64,000 nucleotides of DNA from Corynebacterium canis (lineage in GTDB: Bacteria; Actinomycetota; Actinomycetes; Mycobacteriales; Mycobacteriaceae). A model generated the notes under the pieces. That model had not been told where the DNA came from. It did no database searches and saw only the letters and a program-made list of their open reading frames with translations. Positions 23,127 through 52,843 of this stretch are shown here, piece by piece. Numbering within the stretch: position 1 is the first letter of the stretch; every line of letters begins with the position of its first letter. Both the position numbers and the translations under genes were made by a program. The DNA lies in assembly GCF_030408595.1 (NCBI RefSeq), contig NZ_CP047080.1, positions 2,625,353 to 2,689,352 on the forward strand, in the 5' to 3' direction.

Positions 23127-23309
23127 CGAAGGGTTGTGCGCAACCGCCGAGCTGGGGCTGGTCTTTCTATTCTTCATTCGGGGGTCTTACGAAGAAATTC
23201 CGGACGAATCTGGCCCAAAAACGCCGCAGCTCGTCCTTCCATTCTTCGTTGGACACCCCAATGAAGAAATTCCGGACGATCGCAGGTCAGCGGTAGCACA
23301 CAACCTATC
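23127..23309. repeat. Element A, copy 1 (about 183 bp)
   Basis: Starts CGAAGGGTTGTGCGCAAC and ends near CACACAACCTATC; the ends are imperfect inverted repeats (about 23 of 29 positions in the best-matched copies). The interior holds two direct repeats of about 45 bp, each a small hairpin (TTCTTCATTC ... GAAGAA and TTCTTCGTTGG ... CCAATGAAGAA) followed by ATTCCGGACGA. The centre CCAAAAACGC is the region used by the IS elements in copies 6 and 7. Confidence 0.85.
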
Positions 23310-25263: not shown

Positions 25264-25446
25264 CGATGGGTTGTGAGCAACCGCCGACCTGGGACGGGTC
25301 TTTCTATTCTTCATTCGGGGGTCTAGCGAAGAAATTCCGGACGAATCTGGCCCAAAAACGCTGCAAATCGTCTTTTTATTCTTCGTTGAGCACCCTAATG
25401 AAGAAATCTGGGACGATCGCAGGTCAACGGCTGCACACAACCTATC
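25264..25446. repeat. Element A, copy 2 (183 bp)
   Basis: Starts CGATGGGTTGTGAGCAAC and ends CACACAACCTATC. The centre reads CCCAAAAACGCTGCAAATC, a different sub-version from copy 1 (CGCCGCAGCTCGTCC). Uninterrupted. Confidence 0.85.
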
Positions 25447-25523
25447 AGGGCAAGCTGCCAGCAAGACGGTGAAGCACGTACACGATTGAGATTTTTCGAA
25501 CCATCCGCCCCGACGGATCTGCC

Positions 25524-25604
25524 TCAGGCAGATCTGACACGGCGAATTCGGCGTCCTGCGGAAACACCGCCGCGCGACGGCCGACGTGTCGAATCTGCCT
25601 GAGC
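25524..25604. repeat. Element B, copy 2 (81 bp)
   Basis: CTCAGGCAGATCTGACA to TGTCGAATCTGCCTGAG. It lies between A copies 2 and 3 and is joined to copy 3 by the conserved tail CACTTCAACCCCTCCACATC. Confidence 0.85.
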
Positions 25605-25646
25605 GCGAAGCTCGGCAGCCACTTCAACCCCTCCACATCACGCCGC

Positions 25647-25828
25647 CGATGGGTTGTACGCAACTGCCGACCTGGGACTGGTCTTTCTATTCTTCATTCG
25701 GGGTCTCACGAAGAAATTCCGGACGAATCTGGCCCAAAAATGCTGCAAATCGTCTTTTTATTCTTCGTTGAGCACCCTAATGAAGAAATCTAGGCCGATC
25801 GCAGGTCAACGGCTGCACACAACCTATC
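25647..25828. repeat. Element A, copy 3 (182 bp)
   Basis: Starts CGATGGGTTGTACGCAAC and ends CACACAACCTATC. It lacks one G in the run after ATTC (four instead of five), which would shift any reading frame across the element. Confidence 0.85.
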
Positions 25829-38294: not shown

Positions 38295-38374
38295 GGTTCT
38301 GGCGGGGTGGGGTTTTGGCGGCGAGGCTGGGTCCGCCCAGAGTGCCGGTGGGATGTCCCAGCCACCCAGAGGGG

Positions 38375-38557
38375 CGATAGGTTGTGTGCAACCGCCGACC
38401 TGGGGCTGGTCTTTCTATTCTTCATTCGGGGGTCTCACGAAGAAATTCCGGACGAATCTGGGCCAAAAACGCCGCAGCTCGTCCTTCCATTCTTCGTTAG
38501 GGTACTCAACGAAGAAATTCCGGACGATCGCAGGTCAACGGCTGCCCACAACCTATC
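38375..38557. repeat. Element A, copy 4 (183 bp)
   Basis: Starts CGATAGGTTGTGTGCAAC and ends CCCACAACCTATC. Its second hairpin has a diverged loop (TTCTTCGTTAGGGTACTC) but the arms still pair. Uninterrupted. Confidence 0.85.
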
Positions 38558-38633
38558 GGCGGAAGCTGCGGGGAAAGCAATCCCGGGCAATAGAGTTCGA
38601 ACTTTCTCGAACCATAGGCCCCACCGGATCTGC

Positions 38634-38714
38634 CTCAGGCAGATCTAACAGCTCGAATTCGGCGTCCTGCGGAAACACCACCGCGCAGCGGCCTACATGT
38701 CAAATCTGCCTGAG
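38634..38714. repeat. Element B, copy 3 (81 bp)
   Basis: CTCAGGCAGATCTAACA to TGTCAAATCTGCCTGAG. It lies between A copies 4 and 5 and is followed by the conserved tail CACTTCAACCCCACCAAATC. Confidence 0.85.
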
Positions 38715-38757
38715 CGCGAAGCTCGGCAGCCACTTCAACCCCACCAAATCACCCCGC

Positions 38758-38940
38758 CGATGGGTTGTGCGCAACCGCCGACCTGGGGCTGGTCTTTCTA
38801 TTCTTCATTCGGGGGTCTCACGAAGAAATCCCGGACGAATCTGGCCCAAAAAAGCCGCAGCTCGTCCTTCCATTCTTCGTTGGACACCCCAATGAAGAAA
38901 TTCCGGACGATCGCAGGTCAACGGCTGCACACAACCTATC
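38758..38940. repeat. Element A, copy 5 (183 bp)
   Basis: Starts CGATGGGTTGTGCGCAAC and ends CACACAACCTATC. Unlike copies 1-3 it is not followed by the AAGGCAAGCTGCC flank but runs straight into a transposase remnant, which helps mark the right boundary of A. Confidence 0.85.
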
Positions 38941-38982
38941 AAGAGTGCACTTCAGATCAACGGTTACGCCGCCGAGAGCTGC

Positions 38983-39174
38983 CTAGAGCTTGTTGTGCGA
39001 TCCGGAGCCAGACCCCAGCGTGCCGATTTCTCTGGAAACCCAATAGTTCAGGGTGGACAGCGGGATGTCCAACTCTTGGGCCACTTCGGTGCGTGGCCTC
39101 CCTGCTTGAATGACTCTGGCTATTGCTGCTGCTCGGAATGTTTTGCTGTAGGTCCTGGCTGAAGATCGGGGCAT
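38983..39174 (-). pseudogene. Transposase OrfA remnant
   Basis: 63 codons encoding SKTFRAAAIARVIQAGRPRT followed by EVAQELDIPLSTLNYWVSRE, the N-terminal HTH of an IS3-type OrfA (or similar) transposase. No catalytic part follows; the sequence ends shortly before element A copy 5. It lies 15 bp downstream of rlmB on the same strand. Confidence 0.6.
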
Positions 39175-48910: not shown

Positions 48911-49009
48911 CGATAGGTTGTGCGCAACGACCGACCTGGGGCTGGTCTTTCTATTCTTCATTAGGGCCGCCAACGAAGAAATTCCGGACGAATCTCGCCT
49001 AAAAACGCT
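48911..49009. repeat. Element A, copy 6, left half
   Basis: Starts CGATAGGTTGTGCGCAAC and breaks off at the 14-bp target duplication CGCCTAAAAACGCT (48996-49009). The right half resumes at 50648 after the insertion sequence. Without the IS and one duplication the copy measures 183 bp. Confidence 0.9.
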
Positions 49010-49023
49010 TGTCATCTCTCAGG

Positions 49024-49143
49024 ACCTTGGTAACAACCTGTTTCATCACCTTGGTGACAACCTGTCTCATGTCCTTGGTAACAGTCTGTCTCATGGCCTT
49101 GGATGCAACGAGTCTCATGACCGTGGAAACGATTTTGGTGGTG
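49024..49143. repeat. Left-end 24-bp iterons of IS copy 1
   Basis: Five consecutive 24-bp units starting at 49024, 49048, 49072, 49096 and 49120. Units 1-3 share CCTTGGTRACA and CTGTYTCAT; units 4 and 5 decay toward the transposase gene. They are probably binding sites for the transposase. Confidence 0.85.
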
Positions 49144-49162
49144 TTCGTTTTCAATTAAGTGC

Positions 49163-50536
49163 ATGGTTCGTCCTCTTTCGCCGAATGTGCGGCGTTTAAT
49201 TGTTGAATTTGATCCGTGTGCCGCGAACGGCATGAGCATTACGGAGTTTTGTGCGGTTCATGGCATTAGCCGGAAAACGTACTATGCGATCAAAAAGCGT
49301 TTTGAGCAGGAAGGATTTAGGGCGCTGCATCCGCGGTCGAGTGCGCCACATAAGCCTGCAACTACCTATGATGAGGCTACGGTGTCGATGGTGCTTGCGA
49401 TGCGGGAACGGCTTGGCCAATTTGGTTGGGATAATGGGCCGCGATCCATTTGGTATGCGTTGATTGATCAGCCGAATGTGGTGCAGCCGATTCCTTCGGT
49501 GTCGACGATTGCTCGGATTCTGGCTGCTGCGGGTGTGGTCGCGAAGAATCCCCGGAAGCGGCCTCGCTCATCGATAGTGCGCTTCGAGCGATCCTGTGCC
49601 ATGGAGTTGTGGCAGCTGGATGCGTTTTCCTATCGGCTCGCTACTCCGGCGGGCACTGTGATCACGATTTACCAGCTTATCGATGATGCAACCCGATTTG
49701 ATGTGGGTACTACGTATGGCACCAAGCCGGAAAATGGGGCAGATGCGTTGAACTGTGTAGTTAACGCGATCCGTGTCTATGGGGTACCGCGCCAATTGCT
49801 GAGCGATAATGGTGGCGCGTTTAATCAGATTCGCCGGGGCCGGATCACTGCGCTGCATCGGTTTCTTGCCGTCAAGGGCTGTGAGGCCATTACTGGCCGG
49901 GCGGATCATCCCCAAACCCAAGGCAAAAACGAACGCTCCCATCAAACCTTGGTGAAGTTCCTTGATGCGCACAAGCCCAGTACTGAGGCCAAATTGAAGG
50001 AATTGCTCAGTGAATACCGGGAGTACTACAACAACAAGCGGAGGCATCAAGCACTCGGGGGTATGACCCCGAAACAGGCCTGGGACAGCATCGAACACCG
50101 CCCTAGTAGCGGCGAGCCCATCACCCAGGAGCAATTGACTGCAGAGATTGAAAAATACCGGCAAGCCCGTTCGAGCGAGTCCCCCAGCGCTGCAGATGGC
50201 CTCGACCAAGATCCAGCAATGCTGTACATCAAACCCTCGTCCAGACCACGTTTCGCGCTCGCGGGGTACTACATCAATATCCCCAAACGGCTTACCGATA
50301 AGCACTACTACGTCGTTCACACCGACGATGAATACGCGCTATTCGGTTCCGTCGACGGCGTCATGGTCCTGCGAATCCCACTGCCACTAAACGTGCTCGG
50401 CGAACCGATCGGCGCCACCGTACCCCTTTGGAAAATCATCGGCGCGTACCTCCACGAGGCCCCGCCGTGGTTTCTCAAACGACAGCAGCAATGGCTACAA
50501 CAACACCCCACCGCCGCTGCTGAACTAGAGGATTAA
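49163..50536 (+). CDS. Transposase (rve/DDE) of IS copy 1
   Basis: 457 aa. An N-terminal HTH (SITEFCAVHGISRKTYYAIK, about 25-44) and linker are followed by the retroviral-integrase-like core with D153 (WQLDAF), D215 (LSDNGGAF) and E257 (GKNERSHQT). A C-terminal extension of about 140 residues (PRFALAGYYINIPKRL, HTDDEYALFGSVDG) looks like a beta-barrel of the kind following the catalytic core in Mu/TnsB-type transposases. It resembles IS481-family proteins but is longer than many. Intact, so probably active. ATG at 49163, 20 bp after the last left iteron. Confidence 0.9.
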   Translation: MVRPLSPNVRRLIVEFDPCAANGMSITEFCAVHGISRKTYYAIKKRFEQEGFRALHPRSSAPHKPATTYDEATVSMVLAMRERLGQFGWDNGPRSIWYALIDQPNVVQPIPSVSTIARILAAAGVVAKNPRKRPRSSIVRFERSCAMELWQLDAFSYRLATPAGTVITIYQLIDDATRFDVGTTYGTKPENGADALNCVVNAIRVYGVPRQLLSDNGGAFNQIRRGRITALHRFLAVKGCEAITGRADHPQTQGKNERSHQTLVKFLDAHKPSTEAKLKELLSEYREYYNNKRRHQALGGMTPKQAWDSIEHRPSSGEPITQEQLTAEIEKYRQARSSESPSAADGLDQDPAMLYIKPSSRPRFALAGYYINIPKRLTDKHYYVVHTDDEYALFGSVDGVMVLRIPLPLNVLGEPIGATVPLWKIIGAYLHEAPPWFLKRQQQWLQQHPTAAAELED

Positions 50537-50550
50537 CTACCCGCTCGCGC

Positions 50551-50647
50551 GTTACCAAGGTAATGCTACTGGTTGTTACCAAGGTGATGATACAGATTGT
50601 TACCAAGGTGATGGCACAGAGTGTTACCAAGGTCGCGAAATTCTACA
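50551..50647. repeat. Right-end 24-bp iterons of IS copy 1
   Basis: Units begin GTTACCAAGG at 50551, 50575, 50599 and 50623, exactly 24 bp apart; the last runs into the terminal ACA. In reverse complement they carry the same CCTTGGTAAC core as the left end. Confidence 0.85.
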
Positions 50648-50745
50648 CGCCTAAAAACGCTGCAAATCGTCTTTTTATTCTTCGTTGAGGTGCCCGATGA
50701 AGAAATTCCGGACGATCGCAGGTCAACGGCTGCACACAACCTACC
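50648..50745. repeat. Element A, copy 6, right half
   Basis: Begins with the second target duplication CGCCTAAAAACGCT (50648-50661), continues GCAAATCGTC and the second hairpin, and ends CACACAACCTACC. Followed by the common flank AGGGCAAGCTG. Confidence 0.9.
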
Positions 50746-50821
50746 AGGGCAAGCTGTTGGCAAGGCCGTTCCACACATGCAAGGTTGAATTTTCCCGAAT
50801 CATCGGCCCCGCCGGATCTGC

Positions 50822-50902
50822 CTCAGGCAGATCTAACAGCTCGAATTCGGCGTCCTGCGGAAACACCGTCACTAGGGTCCCGGCGTGTCGAATCTGCCTG
50901 AG
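50822..50902. repeat. Element B, copy 4 (81 bp)
   Basis: CTCAGGCAGATCTAACA to TGTCGAATCTGCCTGAG, between the two IS-interrupted A copies. Its core differs from the other copies after GGAAACACC. Confidence 0.85.
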
Positions 50903-50977
50903 CGCGGAAAATCGCCGGCCAATTTCGGCCCCCAAGTCACCCCAGCGGCAGTAGCTTGTGCATCACCGCCAAGGTCA

Positions 50978-51008
50978 CCGATAGGCTGTGTGCAACCAAC
51001 GTGCGTGC
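50978..51008. repeat. Iterated left end before A copy 7
   Basis: CGATAGGCTGTGTGCAAC stands just before the complete left end of copy 7, as also seen before copies 2 and 6. Confidence 0.55.
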
Positions 51009-51108
51009 CGATAGGTTGTGCGCAACTACCGACCTGGGGCTGGTCTTTCTATTCTTCATTAGGGCCGCCAACGAAGAAATTCCGGACGAATCTCGCCCAA
51101 AAACGCTG
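51009..51108. repeat. Element A, copy 7, left half
   Basis: Starts CGATAGGTTGTGCGCAAC and ends at the 14-bp duplication GCCCAAAAACGCTG (51095-51108), where the second IS begins. Confidence 0.9.
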
Positions 51109-52746
51109 TGTAGAATCTCGCGACCTTGGTAACACTCTGTGCCATCACCTTGGTAACAATCAGTATCATCACCTTGGTGACAACCAGTAGCATTACCTTG
51201 GTAACGCGCGAGCGGGTAGTTAATCCTCTAGTTCAGCAGCGGCGGTGGGGTGTTGTTGTAGCCATTGCTGCTGTCGTTTGAGAAACCACGGCGGGGCCTC
51301 GTGGAGGTACGCGCCGATGATTTTCCAAAGGGGTACGGTGGCGCCGATCGGTTCGCCGAGCACGTTTAGTGGCAGTGGGATTCGCAGGACCATGACGCCG
51401 TCGACGGAATCGAATAGCGCGTATTCATCGTCGGTGTGAACGACGTAGTAGTGCTTATCGGTAAGCCGTTTGGGGATATTGATGTAGTACCCCGCGAGCG
51501 CGAAACGTGGTCTGGACGAGGGTTTGATGTACAGCATTGCTGGATCCTGGTCGAGGCCATCTGCAGCGCTGGGGGACTCGCTCGAACGGGCCTGCCGGTA
51601 TTTTTCAATCTCTGCAGTCAATTGCTCCTGGGTGATGGGCTCGCCGCTACTAGGGCGGTGTTCGATGCTGTCCCAGGCCTGTTTCGGGGTCATACCCCCG
51701 AGTGCTTGATGCCTCCGCTTGTTGTTGTAGTACTCCCGGTATTCACTGAGCAATTCCTTCAATTTGGCCTCAGTACTGGGCTTGTGCGCATCAAGGAACT
51801 TCACCAAGGTTTGATGGGAGCGTTCGTTTTTGCCTTGGGTTTGGGGATGATCCGCCCGGCCAGTAATGGCCTCACAACCCTTGACGGCAAGAAACCGATG
51901 CAGCGCAGTGATCCGGCCCCGGCGAATCTGATTAAACGCGCCACCATTATCGCTCAGCAATTGGCGCGGTACCCCATAGACACGGATCGCGTTAACTACA
52001 CAGTTCAACGCATCTGCCCCATTTTCCGGCTTGGTGCCATACGTAGTACCCACATCAAATCGGGTTGCATCATCGATAAGCTGGTAAATCGTGATCACAG
52101 TGCCCGCCGGAGTAGCGAGCCGATAGGAAAACGCATCCAGCTGCCACAACTCCATGGCACAGGATCGCTCGAAGCGCACTATCGATGAGCGAGGCCGCTT
52201 CCGGGGATTCTTCGCGACCACACCCGCAGCAGCCAGAATCCGAGCAATCGTCGACACCGAAGGAATCGGCTGCACCACATTCGGCTGATCAATCAACGCA
52301 TACCAAATGGATCGCGGCCCATTATCCCAACCAAATTGGCCAAGCCGCTCCCGCATCGCAAGCACCATCGACACCGTAGCCTCATCATAGGTAGTCGCAG
52401 GCTTATGCGGCGCACTCGACCGCGGATGCAGCGCCCCAAATCCTTCCTGCTCAAAACGCTTTTTGATCGCATAATACGTTTTCCGGCTAATGCCATGAAC
52501 CGCACAAAACTCCGTAATACTCATGCCGTTCGCGGCACACGGATCAAATTCAACAATTAAACGCCGCACATTCGGCGAAAGAGGACGAACCATGCACCTA
52601 ATTGAAAACGAACACCACCAAAATCGTTTCCACGGTCATGAGACTCGTTGCATCCAAGGCCATGAGACAGACTGTTACCAAGGACATGAGACAGGTTGTC
52701 ACCAAGGTGATGAAACAGGTTGTTACCAAGGTCCTGAGAGATGACA
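51109..52746 (-). mobile_element. IS481-like insertion sequence, copy 2 (1638 bp, inverted)
   Basis: Same length as copy 1 and in opposite orientation. It begins TGTAGAATCTCGCGACC and ends CCTGAGAGATGACA. The flanking duplication GCCCAAAAACGCTG is perfect (51095-51108 and 52747-52760). The 24-bp iterons are present at both ends. It is inserted one base away from the equivalent position used by copy 1. Confidence 0.9.
51220..52593 (-). CDS. Transposase (rve/DDE) of IS copy 2
   Basis: 457 aa, nearly identical to the copy-1 transposase; visible changes are Gly for Arg at residue 53 and Asp for Gly before SVDG in the C-terminal extension. The catalytic D153, D215 and E257 are intact. The high identity points to recent transposition or gene conversion between the inverted copies. 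Confidence 0.9.
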   Translation of the reverse strand: MVRPLSPNVRRLIVEFDPCAANGMSITEFCAVHGISRKTYYAIKKRFEQEGFGALHPRSSAPHKPATTYDEATVSMVLAMRERLGQFGWDNGPRSIWYALIDQPNVVQPIPSVSTIARILAAAGVVAKNPRKRPRSSIVRFERSCAMELWQLDAFSYRLATPAGTVITIYQLIDDATRFDVGTTYGTKPENGADALNCVVNAIRVYGVPRQLLSDNGGAFNQIRRGRITALHRFLAVKGCEAITGRADHPQTQGKNERSHQTLVKFLDAHKPSTEAKLKELLSEYREYYNNKRRHQALGGMTPKQAWDSIEHRPSSGEPITQEQLTAEIEKYRQARSSESPSAADGLDQDPAMLYIKPSSRPRFALAGYYINIPKRLTDKHYYVVHTDDEYALFDSVDGVMVLRIPLPLNVLGEPIGATVPLWKIIGAYLHEAPPWFLKRQQQWLQQHPTAAAELED

Positions 52747-52843
52747 GCCCAAAAACGCTGCGTCTGGTCTTTTTATTCTTCGTTGGACATCCCAATGAAG
52801 AAATTCAGGACGATCGCAGGTCAACGGCTGCACACAACCTATC
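52747..52843. repeat. Element A, copy 7, right half
   Basis: Begins with the second target duplication GCCCAAAAACGCTG, continues through the second hairpin and ends CACACAACCTATC. Joined to its left half the copy is 183 bp. The 109 bp that follow, up to the membrane-protein gene, hold no recognised feature. Confidence 0.9.

Follow-up and report, generated by a model that had tools for sequence, protein, structure and literature searches.

An IS481-like insertion sequence at the centre of a large intergenic palindrome of Corynebacterium canis

Insertion sequence copies in element A

The analysed stretch of DNA, 64,000 nucleotides of Corynebacterium canis (contig NZ_CP047080.1, positions 2,625,353-2,689,352; hereafter the window), contains two copies of a one-gene insertion sequence (IS), each of which interrupts a copy of an imperfect palindrome with nested inverted repeats. 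This palindrome, of about 170-180 bases, is referred to here as element A. Results of our analysis of the chromosome indicate that the IS481-like element very probably inserts site-specifically at the centre of A, an intergenic repeat. The features of the locus are as follows (lengths in base pairs, bp, or amino acids, aa; the ends of the A halves were set by comparison with other A copies).

48916..49009, + strand: left half of the element A interrupted by IS copy 1
48996..49009, + strand: 14-bp target duplication left of IS copy 1, CGCCTAAAAACGCT
49010..50647, + strand: IS copy 1, 1,638 bp, with ends TGTCATCT...ATTCTACA
49024..49130, + strand: sub-terminal IS repeats with a period of 24, ACCTTGGTAACAACCTGT..., candidate transposase-binding sites (repeat search)
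49163..50536, + strand: transposase of IS copy 1, 457 aa, IS481-like DDE
50551..50638, - strand: sub-terminal repeats of the other IS end, inverted, with a period of 24, putatively of the same role (repeat search)
50648..50661, + strand: 14-bp target duplication right of IS copy 1, CGCCTAAAAACGCT
50662..50741, + strand: right half of the element A interrupted by IS copy 1
51014..51108, + strand: left half of the element A interrupted by IS copy 2
51095..51108, + strand: 14-bp target duplication left of IS copy 2, GCCCAAAAACGCTG
51109..52746, - strand: IS copy 2, 1,638 bp
51220..52593, - strand: transposase of IS copy 2, 457 aa
52747..52760, + strand: 14-bp target duplication right of IS copy 2, GCCCAAAAACGCTG
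52761..52839, + strand: right half of the element A interrupted by IS copy 2

Both window copies begin with TGT and finish with ACA, their 457-aa transposase frames are intact and, lying in opposite orientation, they are 99% complementary to each other. The two A elements that they occupy are neighbours and represent a pair of the A-spacer-A kind; in the repeat search, the inverted arms were separated by 459 bases. A sequence-only reading of the window had placed both copies in the middle of A, in opposite orientation and with duplications CGCCTAAAAACGCT and GCCCAAAAACGCTG offset by one base, and the coordinates agree with this description.

The chromosome searched is one contig of 3,045,310 bases (G000), in which the IS gave 36 matches: 12 full-length copies and 24 internal-repeat matches inside those copies. 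All 12 copies lie inside A at one point, to within one base, four of them in one orientation relative to A (loci L001, L006, L008, and L009) and eight in the other. Each is 1,638 bp long, has TGT...ACA ends, and retains the intact 457-codon transposase frame. Perfect 14-bp duplications, of six distinct sequences and in two registers, flank ten copies. At the two remaining ones the duplications are mismatched in one base (L004) or two bases (L005), and the left duplication of L004 is identical to the one on the right of L005, a pattern consistent with IS copies having recombined with each other. The earlier proposal that the IS targets element A, made from the two window copies, is supported by these data, and inspection of all copies for sites outside A revealed none elsewhere in the own genome.

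Since A makes up 0.47% of the genome (86 copies x 168 bases, 14.4 kb), the chance of finding 12 of 12 copies in it is about 1e-28 before the identical position is counted, and chance was rejected as the cause of the targeting. A segmental duplication of one insertion was also rejected. Outside A, matching flank pieces of the IS loci are 71-92% alike (one piece, at 99%, belongs to the adjacent IS copy itself), but the IS copies show almost no divergence: compared with L001, 1 base is changed in one of the 11 others and 14-16 of 1,638 in the remaining ten. The IS was not found in any other strain or genome searched; an order-wide search at E 1e-90 gave 1 of 397, the own genome, and there was no megablast match in plasmids.

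Conservation of A across its copies spans about 178 bases, from GGTTG to CAACCTATC, and ends on both sides. A pattern search for the centre and counting by both arms yielded at least 86 core-bearing copies, a lower bound: 62 unmarked, 12 occupied by the IS, 11 with a lengthened core, and one split by an IS21-like element. The centre pattern (up to 3 mismatches) had 63 matches, of which one (1,828,029) is the right half of the split copy, and none in the reversed-pattern control. The script set of 63 copies used below comprises the 62 unmarked copies and one lengthened copy (L005:976). Three more copies, outside the count of 86, have the core deleted between direct repeats (L288, L289, and L296); a reversed match that duplicated another was likewise excluded from the count.

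According to a gene caller that is a simple codon-usage model trained on 30 window frames, all 62 unmarked A copies are intergenic. The right neighbour along A points at A in 52 of the 57 cases in which it was called, and among the 52 copies for which both neighbours were called, 31 lie in a convergent gap and one in a divergent gap. Insertions into A, which is found between genes and mostly next to their 3' ends, would be expected to do the host little harm, and the intergenic position of the unmarked copies supports the earlier view that the IS lands in a safe repeat. In 51 of the 63 pattern matches, the strand on which A lies corresponds to the half of the chromosome, assuming an origin near position 1 and with paired copies that are not independent; gene orientation may explain this bias.

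Insertion point and reading of the target

In 56 of the 63 copies of the script set, the best ungapped dyad axis of A falls on the third base of AAAAA. The centre of the duplication is offset from the dyad by +0.5 base in 10 insertions and by -0.5 base in 2, and the cuts lie about 7 bases either side of the dyad, to half a base, in all 12, which shows that the insertion point of the IS is at the A dyad. The one-base shift between the window duplications results from an even-length (14-bp) duplication on an odd-centred palindrome, with its two nearest registers. The 10:2 split between the registers suggests that the asymmetric core also counts.

Eleven A copies contain 9-13 extra bases in the core, and each of these cores can be read as the first copy of the duplication followed by the second one minus some bases. 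The core of L143 (near 1,800,069) reads GGCCAAAAACGCCG-TGTA-CGCCG, namely the duplication, TGTA, and a truncated duplication, and this TGTA is the terminus of the IS right end. In the lengthened core of L007, A, or ACA, stands between the duplication copies; both IS ends finish with ACA. A recount of 74 entries, made up of the 63 script-set copies plus the 11 lengthened ones (one copy belongs to both), gave 13 distinct length changes of at least 5 bases in A. Of these, 11 affect the core, which has a p of about 4e-10 under a uniform rule, and the other 2, in L011 and L093, affect arm loops. The 35 further changes, of 1-4 bases, are almost all outside the core, with 26 at one position. It is probable that the lengthened cores are remnants of past insertions, that is, excision scars.

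In the mechanism that we propose, the transposase itself would bring a near-symmetric transpososome to the centre of A by recognising both the AAAAACGC core and the symmetric arms. The two IS ends would be joined at a 14-bp stagger, and gap repair would create the duplication. Some copies may then have left again or been deleted, leaving the incomplete tandem duplications in 11 further A elements. In a more far-reaching reading, the IS has swapped the CTAG rule of its relatives for homing to the A dyad, probably by recognition of its symmetric or extruded form, and passes through cycles of insertion, exit, scar formation and renewed insertion, with 23 of the at least 86 A copies (12 occupied, 11 scarred) recording hits at one and the same point. 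We put forward this extended reading as tentative and rather doubtful as a whole. If this reading were true, A would act as a landing strip in the genome, absorbing a transposon.

Quite conceivably, if short of probably, the linear core (about GSCCRAAAACNCYG) alone is recognised, in the way that CTAG is read by other IS481 elements, the palindrome being incidental and A being hit as the main supplier of the core. The genome contains 64 exact matches of SCCNRAAAACNCYG, of which 48 are in A copies or at IS edges; the 10:2 register bias follows the asymmetric core; and the Corynebacterium relatives of the IS have a short motif, CTAG, in 16 of their 20 15-bp duplications. Recognition of the linear core is less easily reconciled with the occurrence of both half-base registers, with one used site, GGCCCGAAAACCCC, that deviates from the common core, and with the 16 core matches outside A, none of which bears an IS. 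No tandem core was found at the 13 of these sites that were inspected. This last contrast is weak, since 12 of the 13 fall in open frames of at least 196 aa, in which selection may hide IS hits, and 0 of 16 core-like sites against 12 of 86 A copies is not a significant difference (p 0.2); with lengthened copies counted as hits, it becomes 0 of 16 against 23 of 86 (p 0.02). We regard it as unlikely that the transposase is guided by a host protein on A, in the role proposed for XerC with ISAjo2-type elements, or by the state of transcription or supercoiling where genes converge. In favour of such guidance, A is long, conserved and palindromic, which would suit a protein-binding repeat, and its orientation to genes is strongly biased; ISAjo2-type transposases may interact with XerC (PMC10132070). 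Against it, we know of no A-binding protein, no search aimed at one having been made, A is unlike a dif site by eye, and the IS carries one gene only.

Spread of the IS between A copies by homologous recombination or gene conversion, with no targeted transposition, is very improbable. The listed A copies that align along the greater part of the query share 86-96% identity with it, and the unequal duplications of L004 and L005, with the one shared between them, are what IS-IS recombination would give. Conversion would, however, carry along one duplication, one register and one orientation, whereas six perfect sequences, two registers and orientations in a 4:8 ratio were found and ten of the 12 duplications are perfect, which largely refutes it. 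Random insertion with survival only in harmless intergenic repeats is hardly credible: it would agree with the intergenic position of all unmarked copies, but A constitutes about 2.5% of non-coding DNA (14.4 kb, taking 19% of the genome as non-coding, a figure derived only from the window), and survival cannot fix the same nucleotide 12 times, so this explanation is refuted by position.

Besides the poor contrast between core-like sites and A copies, several points weigh against the site-specific insertion mechanism proposed here. The inner approximately 11 bases each side of the dyad are weakly complementary, so the palindromy of A resides mainly in its arms; this, together with the uneven registers, indicates a role for the core sequence and possibly none for the palindrome. 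A single long hairpin is the main predicted fold of the five unoccupied window copies of A (-65 to -78 kcal/mol, RNA parameters), one A copy treated as single-stranded DNA gave -37.7, compared with a mean of -23.2 for shuffled sequences (z -4.9), and the pairs of the consensus hairpin are retained in 93% of cells. Compensatory changes in the hairpin were not above shuffles (10 cells vs. a mean of 13.9), and thus nothing shows that the folded A is selected or read. The lengthened cores could be products of replication slippage at the hairpin tip; two duplications of 10-11 bases in arm loops show that slippage can happen, the 4-base TGTA match is weak evidence for a scar, and no Ku homologue was found in a search for the Ku gene. 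Finally, all data on the IS come from one genome, and the closest relative in the other 241 genomes of the genus is 51% identical among the matches listed.

Family placement, relatives and known systems

The best profile for the transposase is NCBIfam IS481 (NF033577), with a score of 223.5 bits, which is 0.5 bit under the curated cut-off of 224. The next ones are IS3 (79.9 vs. 160 bits) and ISNCY_2 (63.6 vs. 250 bits). TGT...ACA ends are a defining feature of the IS481 family. The structural model of the transposase comprises two predicted N-terminal helix-turn-helix regions, an RNase H fold, and a beta-barrel; its best solved structural matches by E-value are TnsB of ShCAST, IstA, and MuA, with low TM-scores (TMq of 0.27-0.35 in the first dozen rows). 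The 14-bp duplication falls within the range of 2-15 bp given for the IS481 family (PMC10045372).

Among the other 241 genomes of the genus, 71 contain a relative of the IS at E 1e-20 or better. Twenty perfect 15-bp duplications were found at the fetched insertions of these Corynebacterium relatives (5 in G001, 4 in G015, 3 each in G061, G091, and G184, and 2 in G060), and CTAG occurs in 16 of the 20, in 15 of these 16 at positions 4-7 or 9-12. No duplication was called by the script at relatives in G134 (5), G115 (4), G045 (2), and at one G015 copy; in G134 and G115, repeats of about 15 bases can be made out by eye at the sites. The three loci of G100 are truncated by contig ends and were excluded. 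As the relatives mostly hit CTAG, the targeting of A looks, from these sequence comparisons, like a derived trait. A relative in G064 (L162 and L182), 49% identical, has two 14-bp duplications without CTAG. These two have a GAAAMCCAGNC-like stretch in common, oppositely oriented, which may be a further specific target. In G091 (L174-L176 and L305-L307), the three fetched IS copies are located at palindromes of about 37 bases, GATCGTCTAGCR...YGCTAGACGATC, in the arm and not at the axis, with CTAG in their duplications; 11 exact palindromes of this kind exist, of which one or more are next to an IS copy.

Proteins P0002-P0005, the nearest sisters, are 52-69% identical to the transposase. A single-protein search of the named genome collection gave no IS relatives; in the alignment search of the same collection, 80 of 243 stretches were kept. 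Of these 80 loci, from other actinobacteria and bins, 25 have a detectable duplication of 13-16 bp (two share one duplication, and three have one mismatch). Neither CTAG nor a shared target was found among those 25 duplications, and the best palindrome axis lies within half a base of the duplication centre in 3 of the 25 loci.

With IS481 as by far its best profile, though 0.5 bit short of the cut-off, its TGT...ACA ends, and a 14-bp duplication compared with 13-16 bp in relatives, the IS resembles the ISAar22-type branch of the IS481 family with long duplications (about 15 bp); P0064, which carries the name ISAar22-like in its source, shares 44% identity with the transposase. It differs from these long-duplication relatives in its target, which is A here and CTAG in the Corynebacterium relatives (16 of 20). 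TnRErm46/ISRe46 of Rhodococcus equi, also of the IS481 family, similarly couples an IS481 transposase with a defined target, but this is CTAG, with a 6-bp NCTAGN duplication (PMC6794481), in contrast to A and 14 bp here.

The IS is also like the IS1202 family, in particular the ISAjo2-type hunters of dif/pdif sites (PMC10132070), in its TGT...ACA ends, length (about 1.5 kb in that family), transposase size, predicted domain order, and strict target. Membership in the IS1202 family was rejected on the basis of V in place of Q seven residues after the catalytic E (E257...V264 in the alignment), Q being the family residue (PMC10132070), and of the profile score of 63.6 vs. 250 bits. According to the same source, ISAjo2-type elements insert in the same orientation, 5 bp from a pdif site, and IS1202 duplications are of 3-5 or more than 15 bp, or absent, whereas the IS studied here occurs in both orientations inside A and makes 14-bp duplications. 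The dif-adjacent insertion of the short-duplication IS1202 group is not matched here, with all 12 copies in A, although likeness to dif was judged by eye, with no dif search made. For IS1202 members with longer or no duplications, no conserved target was found (PMC10132070).

Palindromic extragenic repeats are established as exclusive targets of elements of the IS3, IS110, IS4, IS256, and IS5 families, and those targeting repetitive extragenic palindromic (REP) sequences include IS1397, ISKpn1, IS621, ISPsy8, ISPa11, ISPpu9/10, ISRm22, and ISRm19 (PMC1525189). Among them, ISPsy8 and ISRm22 insert at the symmetry axis of the repeat, and some ISRm22 copies have hybrid duplications (PMC1525189). 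The IS in A resembles the type 1 REP-targeting elements of Tobes and Pareja, all copies of which are in one repeat at one position (12 of 12 here). It is set apart from them by its 14-bp duplication (0-6 bp in REP-targeting elements where stated; PMC1525189), by the size of the target, about 170-180 bases vs. 20-40 bp of REP (PMC3733652), and by the probable scars in A cores. No palindrome-targeting element of the IS481 family was found in the literature searched, and what appears new is an IS481-like element that strictly targets a large palindrome, makes a 14-bp duplication with its centre at the dyad, and has probably left scars. As far as that literature shows, it would add a sixth IS family to the palindrome-targeting elements. 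The 12 of 12 insertions and the probable excision scars in one genome constitute a natural data set, which makes it testable whether such transposases read sequence, symmetry or a cruciform. A change from CTAG to A among relatives would allow the mapping of target-reading residues, and a single-gene DDE transposase with a long target is a potential tool for site-specific insertion.

Other features of element A

The unoccupied copies of A in the window are the following.

23132..23301, + strand: unoccupied element A
25269..25438, + strand: unoccupied element A
25651..25820, + strand: unoccupied element A, paired with 25269..25438
38380..38549, + strand: unoccupied element A
38763..38932, + strand: unoccupied element A, paired with 38380..38549

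Copies of A are often paired at a distance of about 380-480 bp with a related spacer (A-B-A), as at window positions 25269-25820 and 38380-38932, and such pairs resemble a mosaic element. The flanks of A also contain arrays of CCGATAGGTTGTGCGCAAC-like units. The identity of A with a known RNA was dismissed: the single Rfam match, obtained for window positions 38300-39100 only, was sX8, with 22.9 bits vs. a cut-off of 50. A blastn search for A in phages and plasmids gave no match. A scan of the other 241 genomes of the genus, in which at most three candidates per genome were scored, revealed a relative of A in G196 only (L121), a short single hairpin with no core.

The A copy split by IS21-like DNA is represented by the chromosome positions 1,828,029 and 1,833,371 (L304 and L145). 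The 531-aa protein encoded there passes the NCBIfam IS21 cut-off (174.7 vs. 160 bits). ATCTGG, present at both edges of this insertion, is probably a 6-bp duplication and lies about 7 bases from the A dyad, and the IS21-like end carries TTGGTAA repeats with a 22-base spacing.

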